From the NCBI GenBank assembly GCA_905478365.1, contig CAJQIK010000150.1, positions 1-36,764 of the forward strand: 36,764 nt of DNA. The letters run 5' to 3'. Each line of letters starts with the position of its first letter. Position 1 is the first letter of the stretch. The stretch is from an uncultured Burkholderiales Genera incertae sedis bacterium. Lineage in GTDB: Bacteria; Pseudomonadota; Gammaproteobacteria; Burkholderiales; Eutrophovitaceae. The notes below the pieces were generated by a model. The model saw nothing but the letters and a program-made list of their open reading frames with translations, had not been told where the DNA came from and ran no database searches. A program made the translations under genes and the position numbers. Of the stretch, positions 17,573 through 26,376 are shown piece after piece.

Positions 17573-18688
17573 TTATTGGAATTTTTTAACGAATTTTCGA
17601 TCGACATGATCCTTCCATTTCCAAATCCACCGACCACTGGCGCATAAAATATGTTTCGAAGCCACTGCATTTTTATCGCCGGTACTAATTAAGGCAAGCG
17701 AGCTTTTCTGTGGAGTATACGACTGAAGCGGTGCGCCGCTTAACTTACTCCTGATGTTAGCCTCTAGAATACGTGCTTGTTTGATTGCGTAAACCCCAGA
17801 TTTCGGATAAGTCAGACCTTCAATGGAGGCGATGTCTCCAGTGGCGAAGAGGTTATTAATATCTTTTACCTGAAGAAAATTATCTGTCTTTATATACCCA
17901 TCTTCGGTTGTGGGCAGTCCGGATAATTTTGGCCAATGACTCGGGGATGCTCCCGTTGCCCAAATTACAAAGTCTGATGGAATGATTTTTTTTGATCCTG
18001 TTTTTAGGTAATCCTTATTTACTTCAATAACAGGAGCGTTATAGTAAGTCGTTATACCCCGTTGATGAAGAATCCTATGAAACTTTCTTTTCACGGGTAG
18101 TGCGTGAGTCTCCAATATATCGGTTGCCGCTGTTATCAAACATAATTGTAGATTGGTATAACCTCGAGTAGTAGCTTGATATTGTAAAGCCAACAATACC
18201 TCGATACTCGCCGCTCCGCCGCCCACTACAGATATTCTATGAGTAGAATTTTTTGGGGCACGACCAATTCGATCGAGTAAGTTTTGAATATTATTAACCA
18301 AACCTTTAATGGGTTTTACGGGGATAGCGCAGTCTTTAAGTCCGGCTATGGTCTTAGAGTTTGGGGTAGAACCTGTATTAATGGATGCAAGATCGTATTG
18401 ATAAGTCCCACTCTCGGTATGTATTGTTTGCTCATTTGATGAGATTTTTAATACTGTTTGTTGTACGAATTCATAGTCATATTTTCCGCATAATTTTTGG
18501 AGATCAATATGGCATTCGTTAGATTTGTAATGGCCCGAAATTAATCCGGGGACCATTCCTGAGTAAGGTGTGTGTACTTCACTGCTAATTAATATTAATT
18601 TATAATCTTGAGCAAATGAACGCTCACCCAAGCGTTGAATTGTTTCTAAATGGGTGTGTCCACCGCCGATGAGTACGATTTTCTTCAT
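17573..18688 (-). CDS. FAD-dependent pyridine nucleotide-disulfide oxidoreductase, SelD-N-terminal-like (TIGR03169 type)
   Basis: KKIVLIGGGHTHLETIQ, SGMVPGLISGHY, VVGGGAASIEVLLAL, LFATGDIASIEG. Confidence 0.82.
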   Translation of the reverse strand: MKKIVLIGGGHTHLETIQRLGERSFAQDYKLILISSEVHTPYSGMVPGLISGHYKSNECHIDLQKLCGKYDYEFVQQTVLKISSNEQTIHTESGTYQYDLASINTGSTPNSKTIAGLKDCAIPVKPIKGLVNNIQNLLDRIGRAPKNSTHRISVVGGGAASIEVLLALQYQATTRGYTNLQLCLITAATDILETHALPVKRKFHRILHQRGITTYYNAPVIEVNKDYLKTGSKKIIPSDFVIWATGASPSHWPKLSGLPTTEDGYIKTDNFLQVKDINNLFATGDIASIEGLTYPKSGVYAIKQARILEANIRSKLSGAPLQSYTPQKSSLALISTGDKNAVASKHILCASGRWIWKWKDHVDRKFVKKFQ

Positions 18689-18755
18689 GCGCTTATTTTA
18701 GGTACTAGTTTCTAATTGTGTAGATCTGATGATTAACAACGTCTGAGCCACTGTG

Positions 18756-19394
18756 TCAAAGACCTCTTGTTAAATGTGGCATGTGCAGTGATAACCGTTT
18801 GTAGTCAACAAATTCATCAACATCCCAGAGCGTGGGTAGTTCTGCCCAAGAATAGTGAAATTTCTTTAAATTCTCTCTGATCTGTGACATCACTAAGTTA
18901 CTGTTCCATGGAACGTTTTGAAAGATTTGAGGTGAGAATAGGACCGATCCGATTAACGCGAAGCCTCCATCCTCTACCGGTATAAATACATAATTATGTT
19001 GATCTAATATAGAAATCGCTCTGACTAAGGTTGCCTCATCGATGACAGGGCAGTCACATCCGACTAGTATGACTTTCTTATATTTTTCTAACCCGTCTGT
19101 TAGAGAGCAACTCATGCGGTCAGCAAGCGATTCACCAATTTGCATTTTAATTTCATGGGCTTGGCTTAAGTTTGCAAGAAAAGGGTGATTAATATCAGGC
19201 GTACACCAAATTTGTACCGCTGGCGCTGCGTGGGTGGCGACTTGGAGAGTATGAAGTGTCATACGCTTATGGAGTTCACACGAGCCTTGTGCACCTAATT
19301 CAGGAATAAGTCTCGTCTTCACCTCTCCCTCGATGGGCGTGCGGGTGAATATCTGTATTAATGTATCCCTGTTTTGCTCAGTTTTGCTCATCAT
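18756..19394 (-). CDS. DUF2064/TIGR04282-like glycosyltransferase (arsenosugar-cluster type)
   Basis: IQIFTRTPIEGEVKTRLIPELG, LVGCDCPVIDEATL, FIPVEDGGFALIG. Confidence 0.85.
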   Translation of the reverse strand: MMSKTEQNRDTLIQIFTRTPIEGEVKTRLIPELGAQGSCELHKRMTLHTLQVATHAAPAVQIWCTPDINHPFLANLSQAHEIKMQIGESLADRMSCSLTDGLEKYKKVILVGCDCPVIDEATLVRAISILDQHNYVFIPVEDGGFALIGSVLFSPQIFQNVPWNSNLVMSQIRENLKKFHYSWAELPTLWDVDEFVDYKRLSLHMPHLTRGL

Positions 19395-20077
19395 TTTTTG
19401 TTGTACTGCTTATTCAACCAGTTTGGTGACGCACCTAAAAAAAATAATAACCTCAAGGTCCACATTTTAAAAATTGTACGTATTGGTCCATCCTCCTCCC
19501 ACCTTCTGGCCGATGTTTCTAATGGCGTATCACTTATGAATGGTGACTCTGAAGACCTTATTTTTTTTGAAAACTTAACGTCCTCCATCAATGCAATTGA
19601 TGGGAAAAGCCCCTGTTCTATGAAGATATTTTTATGAATAAAAATCCCTTGATCGCCTGTAGCGACAGACGTAATTTTTGACCGGTAGTTCATCATCGAT
19701 TCAATTACGCGAAAAATTATTTTGGTATTACTTAAACGGACGTTGAACCATCCCCACTTTTTATTTTTTAGACCCGATTCAATGATGCTCTCAAAGTCGA
19801 AGTCAACCTTAGAGTCGGCGTGTAAGAACCATAAATATTTCCCCTTGGCATGCCGAGCGCCAGTGTTCATTTGTTGTGCTCGGCCAGGTTCTGAGTGGAG
19901 AATACGATTTTTTTTATGACAGATGACATTCAGGGTGTCGTCTTCGCTGCATCCGTCGACAACGATAACTTCTGTGTTGTCAGACTTTCTTTTTTGTAAT
20001 GCGTTTAGTAAAGAGGGTAGATGACTCGCTTCATTACGAACGGGAATGATTATCGACAATGAGATTTTTTTTTGCAT
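19391..20077 (-). CDS. TIGR04283-like family 2 glycosyltransferase (arsenosugar-cluster type)
   Basis: SIIIPVRNEASHLPSLLNAL, VIVVDGCSEDDT, GRAQQMNTGARHAKGKYLWFLHADS; ATGA overlap with the next gene. Confidence 0.87.
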   Translation of the reverse strand: MQKKISLSIIIPVRNEASHLPSLLNALQKRKSDNTEVIVVDGCSEDDTLNVICHKKNRILHSEPGRAQQMNTGARHAKGKYLWFLHADSKVDFDFESIIESGLKNKKWGWFNVRLSNTKIIFRVIESMMNYRSKITSVATGDQGIFIHKNIFIEQGLFPSIALMEDVKFSKKIRSSESPFISDTPLETSARRWEEDGPIRTIFKMWTLRLLFFLGASPNWLNKQYNKK

Positions 20078-20089
20078 CTAAAGACCGTT

Positions 20090-20911
20090 TTACATTTGGT
20101 CACGTGTATTGAGTGACCAATCGTAGTCGGTGTATTCGATAGCAATATTACTGCGGTTCACTAAATCAAACTTAGTATCCAACGCAAATGAGTAACTCTT
20201 AAGCCATTCGAGTACTGAGCCAGACATTTTTTGGAAGTCAGCCTTGTACCATTTGAATATCGGTGAGACAAATAAAACTCCATTCTTAATAAAGTTGCGA
20301 CTGCTATCCGATAGGAAGCGCAGAGTGCTATCGTGAAGTTGATCCTCAATACGCCAAGGTTGATATGCTTCTGGACGTAGCGCTGGGCAACTAATTGAGG
20401 CGCAGTTGACAACCATATGAATTCGCGGCTCATCGAAACGTCCTTGTTCTCGTATTAACTTATGCTCTATGTAATCCAAGCTGACGATTTTGCCGAGAAG
20501 ATTAAAGCGTTTGTACTTCCAGGGGCTTTTTAAGAATGAACCTAGGTCCTTTATAGAATCTATTGTTTCGTGATGTTGTGAAACCCAGAAGACCGTGTAA
20601 GCGTTATAGGTATTTATTAAAAATGCCAGTTGCTCTTCCATGTTAAAAGATTCAAATTCAAGTTTAGAAACAGCAGCAATTCCCCCTAAGTACTCTGTCA
20701 TGATTTCTTGATCTTCTTTGAAGCCGAAGTAGTTGACTGTGCTGTTGTGACCGCCTTCATTCCAAGTCACATGTTTTTTTAGTAGTGCATCAAATTTACT
20801 GTGAGTATGATCGAAAGCATATGTTATTGAGACAGTGAGAAAACTAAATAATAAAAATAGTAACTGACTAAATTGTTTACGCTGAAAGACTTGGCGAATT
20901 GGATTTGTCAT
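20090..20911 (-). CDS. Exported DUF547-domain protein
   Basis: FLINTYNAYTVF, LVNCASISCPALRPEAY are typical of DUF547. Start reassigned to 20911 (signal peptide MTNPIRQVFQRKQFSQLLFLLFSFLTVSITYA; ATGA overlap with the upstream gene). Confidence 0.83.
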   Translation of the reverse strand: MTNPIRQVFQRKQFSQLLFLLFSFLTVSITYAFDHTHSKFDALLKKHVTWNEGGHNSTVNYFGFKEDQEIMTEYLGGIAAVSKLEFESFNMEEQLAFLINTYNAYTVFWVSQHHETIDSIKDLGSFLKSPWKYKRFNLLGKIVSLDYIEHKLIREQGRFDEPRIHMVVNCASISCPALRPEAYQPWRIEDQLHDSTLRFLSDSSRNFIKNGVLFVSPIFKWYKADFQKMSGSVLEWLKSYSFALDTKFDLVNRSNIAIEYTDYDWSLNTRDQM

Positions 20912-23085
20912 TTGCGCATGATGCGGTGATATATTTTTAGGATCTTTAAAATTGTATTGGGAGCATGTTTTCTTTTCCATTCGCCCGCTACATATTTGTT
21001 GGCTTCGGAAAAGGTGGGGTAAATATGAGTAGTCGATAGAATTTTATTTAGTCCGAGTTTGTGTTTCATGGCTAGTACAAACTCAGAAATTATTTCTGAG
21101 GCATTTTCACCGACGATAGTTACTCCAATAAGTTGATCTGAATTCGGACGAGTTAGGACTTTGACAAAGCCATGATCCTCCGAATCTGCAATAGCACGGT
21201 CTAAATCATCGAGTCCGTATACAGTGACCTCGTAGTCTATATTTTGTTTCTTTGCATCGTTCTCGCTTAATCCTACCCGGGCAACTTGTGGGTGAGTAAA
21301 GGTAGCCCATGGGACAGATGAAAAATCGACAGTGAACTTTTTAAAACGACCGAAAAGTGCATTAACCGCCGCATACCAGGCTTGGTGAGCGGCCGCATGG
21401 GTGAATTGCATTCTTCCTGTTACGTCACCGCACGCATATATATTCGGAAATTTGGTTTCAAGAAAATCATTGGTAGGCAAAACCTTATCATTTTGAGAAA
21501 CAGCATCTATATCTTCCAGACCATATCCTAGGATGTTCGCTTGTCTGCCAATCGCAAAAAGGACCTGATCAAAGTTCAGCCTGACTTCGCCGTTAGGGCT
21601 ATCACAGACTAGCGTCTGGACATTTTTCTCTTTTATAAAGCCTTTGGCTCGATGTCTAGTGAGTATTGCTACACCCTCATCCGATAATTGATTGCTGATC
21701 GCCTCTGCAACCTCTATATCTTCTTTCATGAGAATACGATCTGCAGATTCAATTAAAATTACATTCGAACCTAAACGCTGAAATGCTTGGGCTAATTCCG
21801 AGCCGATTGCGCCACCGCCAATAACAATCAATTTTTCTGGCAGGTCGGTTAAGTCCCAGACAGTATCAGATGTAGCATATTTAACTTCGCTGAGATTTGG
21901 TAAAGGCGGCACTATAGGTCTTGCTCCAGCCGCAATAATGATTGAGCGAGCACTAATCTCTTGCTGCCCATCTGGTCCGTCGTACGAGACTACCCACGGT
22001 GATACCACTCTTGCATTACCCTGAAGGCAGGTTACTCCTAACTCCGTATACCGCTCTATTGAATCATGGGGCTCTATTTTTTTTATAATTCGGTGTACTC
22101 GTCTCATTATTTCTGAGAATTCAAAGGTGATCTCGGCCTTATGAATGCCTAATCGTTTGGATTGTCTAGCCTCTTCAACGAAGTGTGCGGTTTTAATGAG
22201 TGCCTTTGAAGGGACGCATCCGGTATTGAGGCAATCACCTCCCATTTTATGTTTTTCGATGAGAGCAACTTTCGCATTTACAGCCGTGCCAATGTATGAG
22301 GATACAAGTCCAGCCGCACCTGCCCCAATAACTATAATGTTGTAATCAAATTTTTTGGGTTTCGGCCAGTTAGCGTAGACCCTTCGTCTACTAATGAGAT
22401 CTGATACTAATTTTGCGACTATTGGAAATATACCGATGATGCAAAGCGAAATAACTAGATTTGCAGATAAGATATCTCCCGTTGAATTCAGATTGGCCAG
22501 CTGAGTTCCGGCGTTCACAAATATGATTGTTCCAAGAAGCATACCAATCTGACTCGCGATATAAAATGTATGCGTCTTGATTGGCGTCAGTGCCATCAGT
22601 ACATTAATCGCAAAGAATGGAAAAATAGGAACTAATCTGAGCGTTAAGAGATAAAATGCCCCATCTTTCTTAATGCCATCATTGATAGTTCTTAATTTGT
22701 CACCGAAGCGGGCCCTCACAGAGTTACGAAAAAAATAGCGGGTAATTAAAAAAGCAACTGTCGCTCCAATAGTCGAGGAAAATGATACGAGAACTGTACC
22801 CCAAAATAATCCAAATATAGCTCCTCCAGCGATTGTCAAGATTATGGCGCCTGGAATCGACAGGGCGGCAGCTAAGATATATATAGATACATATATTAGG
22901 CTCGATTCAATTGGGTGGTCTTCAAAAAAAATCTGTAATTCCGAGTAATTTTCCTTTAGGGATTGAAGATTTAATTGTGCTAACAAATTGAGAACGTTGT
23001 CACGGAATAAAGTAAATGATATGAGAACTATTGCAAAGGCAATGATTACGCTAATCCATTTTTTTTGAAGTTTCGTAATTTTCAT
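20908..23085 (-). CDS. TVP38/TMEM64 (DedA-like) membrane domain fused to a mercuric reductase-like FAD/NAD disulfide oxidoreductase
   Basis: aa ~1-240 multi-pass with IPGAIILTIAGGAIFGLFWGT...GATVAFLITRY; aa ~248 on VIGAGAAGLVS, GGDCLNTGCVPSKAL redox Cys pair, YACGDVTG, HIYPTFSEA. Confidence 0.88.
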   Translation of the reverse strand: MKITKLQKKWISVIIAFAIVLISFTLFRDNVLNLLAQLNLQSLKENYSELQIFFEDHPIESSLIYVSIYILAAALSIPGAIILTIAGGAIFGLFWGTVLVSFSSTIGATVAFLITRYFFRNSVRARFGDKLRTINDGIKKDGAFYLLTLRLVPIFPFFAINVLMALTPIKTHTFYIASQIGMLLGTIIFVNAGTQLANLNSTGDILSANLVISLCIIGIFPIVAKLVSDLISRRRVYANWPKPKKFDYNIIVIGAGAAGLVSSYIGTAVNAKVALIEKHKMGGDCLNTGCVPSKALIKTAHFVEEARQSKRLGIHKAEITFEFSEIMRRVHRIIKKIEPHDSIERYTELGVTCLQGNARVVSPWVVSYDGPDGQQEISARSIIIAAGARPIVPPLPNLSEVKYATSDTVWDLTDLPEKLIVIGGGAIGSELAQAFQRLGSNVILIESADRILMKEDIEVAEAISNQLSDEGVAILTRHRAKGFIKEKNVQTLVCDSPNGEVRLNFDQVLFAIGRQANILGYGLEDIDAVSQNDKVLPTNDFLETKFPNIYACGDVTGRMQFTHAAAHQAWYAAVNALFGRFKKFTVDFSSVPWATFTHPQVARVGLSENDAKKQNIDYEVTVYGLDDLDRAIADSEDHGFVKVLTRPNSDQLIGVTIVGENASEIISEFVLAMKHKLGLNKILSTTHIYPTFSEANKYVAGEWKRKHAPNTILKILKIYHRIMRK

Positions 23086-23242
23086 ATTTTAGACTTTGTT
23101 ATAAACAGGGTCTTTATAAGCAGTTTATCGTTGAATGCAATCTTCATTCTATTCGAACCAAGGCTACATGGACATCTTTGAATATTTCTTTTAGGGGGAT
23201 TTTAAGTCCCCGAAAGATACGCTTTTGAGGCGTTATCGGACG

Positions 23243-24202
23243 TTACTGTAAAGCCCCGCTGCAGCTTGAGCCGCGTCCGGCTGTACAGCCAAAGCAATGA
23301 TCCCTGACAGCAATTGACTTACCCTCTATTTGATTTGTATTTAAGTCTCGGATATGAGTTTTACGCCTTAAGTTACCGAACGGGAGACCAAGCATTTGAT
23401 TAAAATCACAATCAAACAGATAACCTTCCCAATCAATCGAAATTAATGTCTTGCACATGACGGAGTTAAGATTTTCCTCGCTATAGTTATCCTTTAACAA
23501 TTGCATGTAGTTTTCAAATTCGCCACGGCTTACCAAGGTGCTCCCAAACCGCTTAATAGGCATATTAGTAATTGTGAGCAGCACATCAAACTGCACACCA
23601 TAGGTTTTGGCTAAATATTCCTTGTACTCAATCTCTAGTGTCTCTTGGGGTGGAGGCAGAAATGCCCCTAGAGGGTTATAAACTAAATGTAGTTGAAGAT
23701 CTGGATTGGAATGTCCATAGCCTACCTCATTGAGTAGGCGTAATCCGTTAATACTTTTTTTGAATACGCCATCCCCCCTCTGAGAATTAACGTTATCTTC
23801 CGTATAGCAGGGCAGAGAAGCAGTGACGATTACCTGATGTTGGGCGAGAAACTTGTGTAGATCTTCTTGGCCATGCTCGAATAAGATTGTTAAATTGCAT
23901 CTGTCAATCACTGCGATTCCTCGATCTCGTATCTCAGAGACGAGTTCACGAAAGTGAGGGTTCAATTCTGGAGCACCACCAGTCAGGTCAACTACTGCAG
24001 GTTTGACCTTATCAATGAATTGAATCACCTGCCTGATGGTATCGATTGACATTTGCTCTTTGCGGTCTGGGCTGGCATTGACGTGGCAGTGAAAGCAAGC
24101 TTGATTACATCGATAACCGAGGTTGATCTGAACGGTTTTGACCTCTTCCCTGTTAATGGGTGGGAACTCTCGGTTATTAAGAAGTGATAATGTGTCGTGC
24201 AT
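23243..24202 (-). CDS. arsS: Arsenosugar biosynthesis radical SAM protein ArsS-like
   Basis: YRCNQACFHCHVNASPDRKE (CxxxCxxC), DLTGGAPELNPHFR, LVYNPLGAFLPPPQ, FDCDFNQMLG, and Cys-rich C-terminus HCFGCTAGRGSSCSGAL. Confidence 0.88.
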   Translation of the reverse strand: MHDTLSLLNNREFPPINREEVKTVQINLGYRCNQACFHCHVNASPDRKEQMSIDTIRQVIQFIDKVKPAVVDLTGGAPELNPHFRELVSEIRDRGIAVIDRCNLTILFEHGQEDLHKFLAQHQVIVTASLPCYTEDNVNSQRGDGVFKKSINGLRLLNEVGYGHSNPDLQLHLVYNPLGAFLPPPQETLEIEYKEYLAKTYGVQFDVLLTITNMPIKRFGSTLVSRGEFENYMQLLKDNYSEENLNSVMCKTLISIDWEGYLFDCDFNQMLGLPFGNLRRKTHIRDLNTNQIEGKSIAVRDHCFGCTAGRGSSCSGALQ

Positions 24203-24288
24203 AGATTACTGTTTTAGTACCTGGTTGTAATGTTTGATGTTAACAAAATTTAGTACTACCTATTTATCGATTATTTGTGGGTCTTTAT

Positions 24289-24885
24289 ATGAAAAATAAT
24301 AAACAATTGATATTGATTTTATTCTCTTTTACATGTTTTGCGACAAGCCCCGTAACTACTTGGAGTGAGGATGATGGACTGCGAGTCGATTCCTCAATCG
24401 ATAATGGTGTCGTCTACGTTGAGGTTGAAAGCTTAATCGAGGCGCCGCACGAACTGATATGGGAGGTTTTGACAGATTACAATCGATTGGCAGAGTATAT
24501 TCCAGGGATGCATTCGAGCCGACTATTGCGCTATGAGGGACAAACTGCGTTTGTGGAGCAACACGGAGTATCAGAGCTTCTTTTCTTTAAGATCCCAATT
24601 GATGTTGTCGTTAAAACTATAGAATTTAAGCCTTATTCTATTTCTATTGAATTGGTATCGGGAAATCTTGACTATTTATCGGGCGGGTATCACTTGACTC
24701 AGATCGGGGATGAGGACCTGTGGGTTTTGTCATGGTCAGGTTTCTTGGATCCATCATTACCCATTCCTAATTTTATAGCGGAGCGATTCATCCGAAATAA
24801 TATTAAGAGCCAATTTTTGGGAATTATTTCTCAGATTGAAAAGGAGAAGAGGAGGTCAGGAAATTATGCTGAGAGTGAGAATTAA
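24289..24885 (+). CDS. Exported START/SRPBCC (polyketide cyclase-like) protein
   Basis: Signal peptide MKNNKQLILILFSFTCFATS; APHELIWEVLTDYNRLAEYIPGMHSSRLL is typical of SRPBCC. Start reassigned to ATG 24289. Confidence 0.75.
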   Translation: MKNNKQLILILFSFTCFATSPVTTWSEDDGLRVDSSIDNGVVYVEVESLIEAPHELIWEVLTDYNRLAEYIPGMHSSRLLRYEGQTAFVEQHGVSELLFFKIPIDVVVKTIEFKPYSISIELVSGNLDYLSGGYHLTQIGDEDLWVLSWSGFLDPSLPIPNFIAERFIRNNIKSQFLGIISQIEKEKRRSGNYAESEN

Positions 24886-26376
24886 ATGCTGATAGGTCTG
24901 CGGTTCGTGTTTGTTGTGAGTTTAATCGTCCTGATGACCGGTTGTGCGACGCAAAGAACATCACATCTGGATTTTGAAGATCAATCCTCTGTTGAACTAT
25001 CGCTAGATTTTTGTCGTAATTGGTCGGAACAACTTGATGTCGTTATTGCGCAATATGAAGCTCGCGATTTTGGAGCTACTAAAGTTAAAGATTATGTTTA
25101 TCTACGAGCTGATCGATTTCTTGCCGCTTTTTCGGACTTAGTTTATGACGATCCAAACCTTTTTCGCGCGTGGGTTTCGGCTATGGTTGATCTCGACCAG
25201 GAGAGTCGTCAAATTGAAGTCAATAATTTGAATGAGGCCGCACTTCGATTGCTAGGTAAGGACCGGTTAACGATTAAGGATGTTACTAAGCGGTGCTCCG
25301 TTTTTTTTAAAGAGCATTATTTAGAAGAACCATTTGATGATCTTGAAAAGTTGACCTCGGTTGTGTTTATTCCCGATGACTATAGCAGCGCTAAAAGAGC
25401 GTTGGGTCTATATCCGTTGTTGAAAATCCCGTTCATTAAAGGTATCAAAGAGTGGCATAAGCAAGCGAGGGATACATTTGAGCGATATGCGCAAAAGGAT
25501 GTCAAAGTAGTTTCTACAAGGCAATACGAACCTACTAAGAAAAATATATTTCGGCCGCAAGAGGTGGCTCGGTTAATGAGTCAGCGTGATGCGCTTGGTC
25601 AGTTAACTTTGAGCCCGGATCTTCTATCGAGATTATTTGTTACATATGCCCCTATATTTACGATCGAGGACTCAGGTGAATTTGATAGGGTTGGCGCGGT
25701 AGATTTTACAAAAGAAGGCGCTGTGACGGTTAACGTCTTGGAGCCCACCGTTTATACCCATTTGACTCACACTCGGTTTGAGGGCAGGACACTGCCGCAG
25801 CTTGTTTATGTCGCTTGGTTCTTAGCAAGGCCTAAAGAGGGAGTGGGTGATCTCCTTGGCGGTAATTTAGACGGCATTATATGGCGCGTGACATTAGATC
25901 ACGACGGAACGCCATTACTTTTCGATTCGATCCACCCATGCGGTTGTTACCACATGTTTTTCCCGACCGATCGCTTAGTACCAAATGCTGCGCCCAGTGA
26001 GTTCGTTGAGTGGGCTTTCTCGCCCAAGCAATTAAATGAGATTGAAACGGGTATGACGGTCAATATTACAGTCCAAACAAAAACACATTATTTAGCTGGA
26101 GTGACCTTAGATAACTTTAGGCAAGAGGCACAACAATATTCTTTGAGAGCTTATGATGAGCTTCGCTCCATTGAGACCTCTCAGGGGCGAAGAAATTTAT
26201 TTGGCGTTAACGGTATCGTTTCTGGATCTGAGAGAGGCGAACGCTATCTGTTGTGGCCTTCGGGTATCGAGAGTCCGGGCGCCATGCGTCAATGGGGTCG
26301 ACACGCCACTGCATTTGTCGGACGCCGTCATTTTGATGATGTTGATTTATTAGACAAATATTATATACGTCGCTAG
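24886..26376 (+). CDS. Large uncharacterised lipoprotein (~496 aa)
   Basis: Lipobox VLMTGC; start codon abuts the stop of the upstream START-like gene; no family recognised. Confidence 0.75.
   Translation: MLIGLRFVFVVSLIVLMTGCATQRTSHLDFEDQSSVELSLDFCRNWSEQLDVVIAQYEARDFGATKVKDYVYLRADRFLAAFSDLVYDDPNLFRAWVSAMVDLDQESRQIEVNNLNEAALRLLGKDRLTIKDVTKRCSVFFKEHYLEEPFDDLEKLTSVVFIPDDYSSAKRALGLYPLLKIPFIKGIKEWHKQARDTFERYAQKDVKVVSTRQYEPTKKNIFRPQEVARLMSQRDALGQLTLSPDLLSRLFVTYAPIFTIEDSGEFDRVGAVDFTKEGAVTVNVLEPTVYTHLTHTRFEGRTLPQLVYVAWFLARPKEGVGDLLGGNLDGIIWRVTLDHDGTPLLFDSIHPCGCYHMFFPTDRLVPNAAPSEFVEWAFSPKQLNEIETGMTVNITVQTKTHYLAGVTLDNFRQEAQQYSLRAYDELRSIETSQGRRNLFGVNGIVSGSERGERYLLWPSGIESPGAMRQWGRHATAFVGRRHFDDVDLLDKYYIRR

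Follow-up and report, generated by a model that had tools for sequence, protein, structure and literature searches.

Judged from profile searches of genome sequences, carrying ArsS without the arsenic methyltransferase ArsM is the rule in the order Burkholderiales, as it holds for most ArsS carriers there. It also holds for the arsS cluster of the window, the whole 36,764-nucleotide stretch of DNA from an uncultured Burkholderiales bacterium that was analyzed here. ArsS and its named partner families were already known, whereas ArsS clusters without arsM appear to be new. We assign a probability of roughly 45% to the reading that this cluster makes an arsenosugar, probably joined to a lipid or another acceptor, and that it starts at dimethylarsenic and not at inorganic arsenic.

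The cluster occupies positions 17573-24202 of the minus strand, in the order arsS, VTT-flavoprotein fusion, DUF547, TIGR04283, TIGR04282, and TIGR03169 (Table 1). Positions 20908-20911 are common to the TGA of the fusion gene and an internal ATG of the DUF547 ORF, positions 19391-19394 are common to the TIGR04283 and TIGR04282 genes, and a gap of 12 bases (20078-20089) separates the DUF547 gene from the TIGR04283 gene. Both overlaps and the gap had been given in a preliminary description of this DNA and proved exact on recheck, and all six minus-strand ORFs that it listed were found at the same coordinates. The outer gaps are wider (157 bases between arsS and the fusion gene, 67 bases between the TIGR04282 and TIGR03169 genes), so that transcription of the six genes as a single unit, which is likely, stays a prediction. 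Promoter and terminator scans gave scores at or below the shuffled background and carried no information. Although the DUF547 ORF is longest when read from 20980, the likely true start is 20911, as it precedes a stretch resembling a signal peptide. Other genus members have the same gene order, and so do many families, there with insertions. Neighborhood genes in this comparison were called by a codon-usage caller that missed some genes, and all neighborhood counts given below are lower bounds.

Table 1. Genes of the arsS cluster and the divergent gene adjoining it, with their positions in the window.
Feature	Position	Strand	Evidence
ArsS, radical SAM (TIGR04167), 319 aa	23243..24202	-	447.6 bits (cut-off 300); DUF3641 C-terminus
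TVP38/VTT (DedA superfamily) membrane domain + MerA/lipoamide-dehydrogenase-like flavoprotein fusion, 725 aa	20908..23085	-	PF09335 (VTT), PF07992 (Pyr_redox_2), PF02852 (dimerization)
DUF547 protein, signal-peptide-like N-terminus	20090..20911	-	PF04784, 78.9 bits
TIGR04283 family GT2 glycosyltransferase, 228 aa	19391..20077	-	251.5 bits (cut-off 182), motifs
TIGR04282/DUF2064 protein, 212 aa, predicted CofC/FbiD-like nucleotidyltransferase	18756..19394	-	173.9 bits (cut-off 134), profile and fold matches
TIGR03169 (SelD-N-terminal-like) FAD/NAD(P) oxidoreductase, 371 aa	17573..18688	-	365.5 bits (cut-off 310)
Polyketide-cyclase/START-like protein, divergent, adjoins arsS	24277..24885	+	PF03364/PF10604

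In the making of oxo-arsenosugars, adenosylation of arsenic is an established activity of ArsS (Cheng 2021, cited in PMC12159101). The radical SAM protein of the window, which had been called ArsS-like from its sequence, scored above the TIGR04167 cut-off with model positions 2-303 of 303 covered, and the call was thereby borne out over the full length of the model. Its cysteines comprise the CxxxCxxC motif (C32, C36, and C39) together with C250, C265, C303, C306, and C314. All eight were invariant in 17 aligned ArsS sequences, and the window protein keeps every cysteine that is invariant in ArsM-linked ArsS. In a tree of 50 ArsS proteins, those from ArsM-bearing and ArsM-free genomes were intermingled within one supported clade (99/96), with six changes between the two labels, at least three of which are forced by supported branches. 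Because of this intermingling, the simplest reading of the sequences is that ArsS likely performs one and the same chemistry whether or not ArsM is present. The tree also contained a second supported ArsS clade (100/98; loci L072, L080, L085, L088, and L090 from genomes G032, G054, G074, G084, and G089). Two of its members have arsS immediately after a TIGR04169 peroxidase-like gene, and no VTT/glycosyltransferase cluster was called nearby.

No methyltransferase domain was found in any of the window ORFs scanned with curated models and Pfam, in agreement with the preliminary description, which had seen none in the window. Its proposal that the methylation step is encoded elsewhere was not supported for ArsM. 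The best match in the window's genome to the ArsM model NF008823 reached 46.6 bits (cut-off 263), no match at 1e-8 was obtained with a profile of ArsS-type ArsM built from four ArsM proteins, all out of arsS loci, and the ArsM cysteine motifs were not found in the genome's methyltransferase candidates. Three of these candidates were rejected as ArsM: C53 is sarcosine/dimethylglycine-like, and C137 and C108 are related or UbiG-like proteins, all without the ArsM motif. The earlier arsenosugar pathway reading was thus right about ArsS, about the order of the genes, and about arsM being absent, and is not supported as to an arsM elsewhere in the genome.

Eight of the nine genomes of the genus carry ArsS and none carries ArsM. 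Among 120 relatives, ArsS was present in 45, and an ArsM-like match was found in 14 of these. Inspection of the arsenic-binding cysteines reduced the credible ArsM proteins to eight (G019, G035, G054, G057, G070, G097, G101, and G114). The ArsM-like matches of G009, G011, G015, G026, G038, and G106 (85-210 bits) lack these cysteines, with NGV in place of NCV, and were for this reason discounted as arsenic methyltransferases. Such cysteine-less proteins often occur in pairs, as in G011 (locus L100, 2583-3932 and 5702-6490) and also in G009, G013, G015, and G106; the C-terminus of one of the G011 proteins resembles a membrane-spanning segment, and an ECF sigma-like gene lies between the pair. 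While credible ArsM occurs in only 8/45 ArsS carriers among the relatives, the TIGR04283 protein occurs in 44/45, compared with 2/75 relatives without ArsS; these co-occurrence counts are raw and not corrected for shared ancestry. In a phylum-wide sample of 399 genomes, an ArsM match was found in 89/106 ArsS carriers outside the window's class and in 4/11 inside it (Fisher p = 0.0013); the cysteine check covered the relatives plus three more genomes of the window's class, so that the out-of-class count may hold weak matches. Many of the out-of-class matches, at about 350 bits, adjoin arsS. A mirror case of the window was observed in G031, a genome without any TIGR04167 match, where a full ArsS-type ArsM (540 bits; L121, 1-1501; G031:C1:2946732-2948514) directly adjoins a TIGR04283 gene.

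We considered whether arsM is present in the organism but was lost in draft assembly or binning. The window's genome, in 156 contigs and 94.7% complete, leaves some room for this, but the eight ArsS-bearing members of the genus all lack arsM, with a probability of about 10^-8.6 that incompleteness would produce this by chance, and 25 relatives that are at least 95% complete, some of them in a single contig, carry ArsS without credible ArsM. The complete genome of UKL13-2 is likewise ArsS-positive and gave no ArsM match. The genus members and the near-complete relatives contradict assembly gaps as the source of the absence, and the explanation is very improbable. Slightly less credible still is that the cluster is a decaying remnant after loss of ArsM, as might be supposed from the frequency of ArsM among ArsS carriers of other classes. 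All cluster genes are intact, their order is conserved across the genus, and the pairwise dN/dS values within the genus, which are rough because dS is high, were 0.06-0.08 for arsS, 0.05-0.07 for the fusion gene, and 0.07-0.28 for the others. By these sequence comparisons arsS is under purifying selection, and its low dN/dS together with its full cysteine set indicates that the cluster is not decaying.

Two other explanations are unlikely but carry more weight. ArsM-free ArsS and its partners may use another substrate, such as arsenite, monomethylarsenite, or another soft nucleophile, so that the product would not be a dimethyl arsenosugar. This would fit with the TIGR04283 glycosyltransferase, and not ArsM, being the tight partner of ArsS in the order, and with ArsL, another radical SAM enzyme, which is predicted to use unmethylated arsenite (PMC8552651). 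However, the window ArsS shares its cysteine set and its clade with ArsM-linked ArsS, and we regard this substrate change as having perhaps one chance in five or a little better. Marginally less probable is methylation by a methyltransferase from outside the ArsM family that is encoded elsewhere in the genome and was missed by the ArsM profiles. The window's genome does hold several unassigned class I methyltransferases, C137 and C53 among them, and relatives in the family hold ArsM-like proteins from which both key cysteines are missing. Against this, none of the candidates in the window's own genome carries the ArsM cysteine motifs or adjoins arsS, and the ArsM profile search of the surveyed arsS neighborhoods found no methyltransferase beyond true ArsM. 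Most plausibly, the ArsM step is bypassed by scavenging of dimethylarsenic.

The preliminary description had named two glycosyltransferases in the cluster. For the TIGR04283 protein this was supported by its score and its GT2 motifs: DG, HxD, MED, and W/RRW-type motifs are invariant (D41, H86, D88, E165, D166, and W193), and its closest solved relatives are GT2 enzymes, including polyprenyl-phosphate transferases. From its sequence, it looks like a competent GT2 glycosyltransferase. The TIGR04282 protein instead resembles nucleotidyltransferases in both profile and fold. The motifs G-x-x-K-T-R-L, G-x-D, and D-G-G are invariant or near-invariant in this family. A profile of 24 members matched the DUF2064 structure 3cgx first, for which the depositors' label is putative nucleotide-diphospho-sugar transferase, and then, weakly (E 0.014-0.022), the guanylyltransferases 6bwg (FbiD), 7p97, and 2i5e. 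A fold search with the AlphaFold model (pLDDT 96) returned the same four structures in the same order, with E 1.9e-10 to 2.5e-8 for 6bwg, 7p97, and 2i5e and a TM of 0.73 to 6bwg, followed by CMP-KDO synthetase, MobA, IspD, and GlmU; 3cgx aside, those named among the 50 fold matches listed are nucleotidyltransferases, and none is a glycosyltransferase. Like the CofC/FbiD 2-phospho-L-lactate and 3-phosphoglycerate guanylyltransferases, the protein has this fold, K-T-R-L, and G-x-D, but it is just 16-17% identical to them and its predicted substrate is a sugar phosphate. From these matches and motifs we predict that the TIGR04282 protein is a nucleotidyltransferase and that it turns a sugar phosphate into the activated donor used by the GT2 enzyme of the overlapping gene, which suggests that the database name glycosyltransferase is wrong for TIGR04282. 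In most families, and at most loci with calls for both genes, the overlap between the two measures 4 to 100 bases. In one genus, two TIGR04283 copies adjoin arsS (L089, 3-2422, in G087; G041:C50).

The flavoprotein part of the fusion protein bears the redox motif CLNTGC. Among COG0398 DedA proteins, a subfamily for which phospholipid flipping has been proposed, fusion to a pyridine nucleotide-disulfide oxidoreductase is the commonest (PMC10127716). By its Pfam domains the window protein has the same fusion, which differs here in being tied to arsS in most surveyed loci: it was found on the arsS strand no more than 10 kb away in 40/54 loci. A TIGR03169 gene lies near arsS on the same strand in 17/54 loci. 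The DUF547 assignment made in the preliminary description was upheld by the Pfam match (Table 1), and the AF2 model of this protein (pLDDT 87) had no significant fold match in the PDB. The polyketide-cyclase/START-like gene has the same place in several genus members, although it is not clearly part of the pathway. Beyond it, positions 24886-26376 encode a 496-aa predicted lipoprotein-like protein without a Pfam or NCBIfam match, whose gene adjoins the cluster across the genus and in the family members G011 and G016. In several families, a gene for a protein of about 320-390 aa (cluster c9) lies between arsS and the VTT-flavoprotein gene, for example, at L045 11078-12034, L067 4807-5814, and L098 9992-11020; the protein has metallophosphoesterase-like motifs (GDFHWFD) and no Pfam or NCBIfam match.

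Just upstream of arsS, G116 (L097, 10079-10928, where the sigma factor is TIGR02943) and G035 (L073, 8002-8969) have genes for an ECF sigma factor and a short zinc-finger-like protein, which hints at dedicated regulation of arsS in these genomes. G097 has genes for an ArsR/SmtB-like regulator and an ArsP-type permease after the cluster. A PF03773 (ArsP-type) permease beside the arsS-arsM genes of G035 is weakened as arsenic evidence, as merA and merR adjoin it. In G057 and G101, whose clusters also hold ArsM, arsS has as its divergent neighbor an MTA phosphorylase-type gene (TIGR01694, 297 bits, cut-off 275), which suggests a possible way to strip adenine from the ArsS product.

For the scavenging of dimethylarsenic, we propose the following route. 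Dimethylarsenate from phytoplankton or other microbes would enter the cell and undergo reduction to trivalent arsenic, for which either flavoprotein of the cluster is a possible catalyst. ArsS would then join the 5'-deoxyadenosyl group to arsenic, and release of adenine by an MTA-phosphorylase-type enzyme would give arsenoribose-1-phosphate. The TIGR04282 enzyme would convert this to the NDP-sugar (NDP-arsenoribose), from which the TIGR04283 enzyme would pass arsenoribose to an acceptor that may be a lipid; the VTT domain may carry a lipid product across the membrane. There is precedent in SAR11 for the consumption of phytoplankton-derived methylated arsenic by heterotrophic bacterioplankton (PMC6426599). 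Several observations count against parts of the route. No importer of DMA was identified. The MTAP of the window's genome (301.6 bits) belongs to an ordinary MTA-salvage operon, with neighbors read as adenine phosphoribosyltransferase and MtnA, which speaks against dedicated release of adenine. Neither Acr3 nor ArsP was found in the window's genome, and arsenic is named in the cluster solely by ArsS and by family names assigned through co-occurrence.

The closest known system is the cyanobacterial ArsM-ArsS pathway (Synechocystis SsArsM and SsArsS; Xue 2019 and Cheng 2021, as cited in PMC8552651 and PMC12159101). The window shares with it an ArsS equivalog whose cysteine set is complete, and also holds TIGR04282 and TIGR04283, which NCBI named for that pathway. 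It differs in that its genome and genus lack ArsM, and it adds a clustered activation and transfer pair, the VTT-flavoprotein, DUF547, and TIGR03169. The arsinothricin cluster arsQML (PMC8552651) likewise encodes a radical SAM enzyme that forms an As-C bond, but the radical SAM family and the product are different, and arsQML includes arsM. The searchable library, outside which most subscription papers lie, yielded no literature on ArsS clusters without ArsM and none on a tested role for TIGR04282 or TIGR04283.

How arsenosugars or arsenolipids are formed after the ArsS step is not settled for any organism that we found described. ArsS together with a predicted nucleotidyltransferase and a GT2 enzyme, plus the MTAP-type gene in two relatives, provides a proposal that can be tested enzyme by enzyme. 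The scarcity of ArsM against the near-constant presence of TIGR04283 among ArsS carriers suggests that many heterotrophs draw on methylated arsenic from other producers. It suggests a downstream-only version of the arsenosugar pathway, which may use methylated arsenic from other microbes; such use, if true, would be an extra branch in the aquatic arsenic cycle. More broadly, and with slightly less confidence than we give the scavenging of dimethylarsenic by this cluster, we tentatively propose that across a large part of the Burkholderiales the ArsS cluster is uncoupled from arsenic methylation and runs through a nucleotide-sugar route to an arsenic nucleoside-derived glycoconjugate or glycolipid, made from scavenged dimethylarsenic or from a different arsenic substrate. 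If this is true, both the class of metabolite and the division of labor within the community would be so far undescribed.
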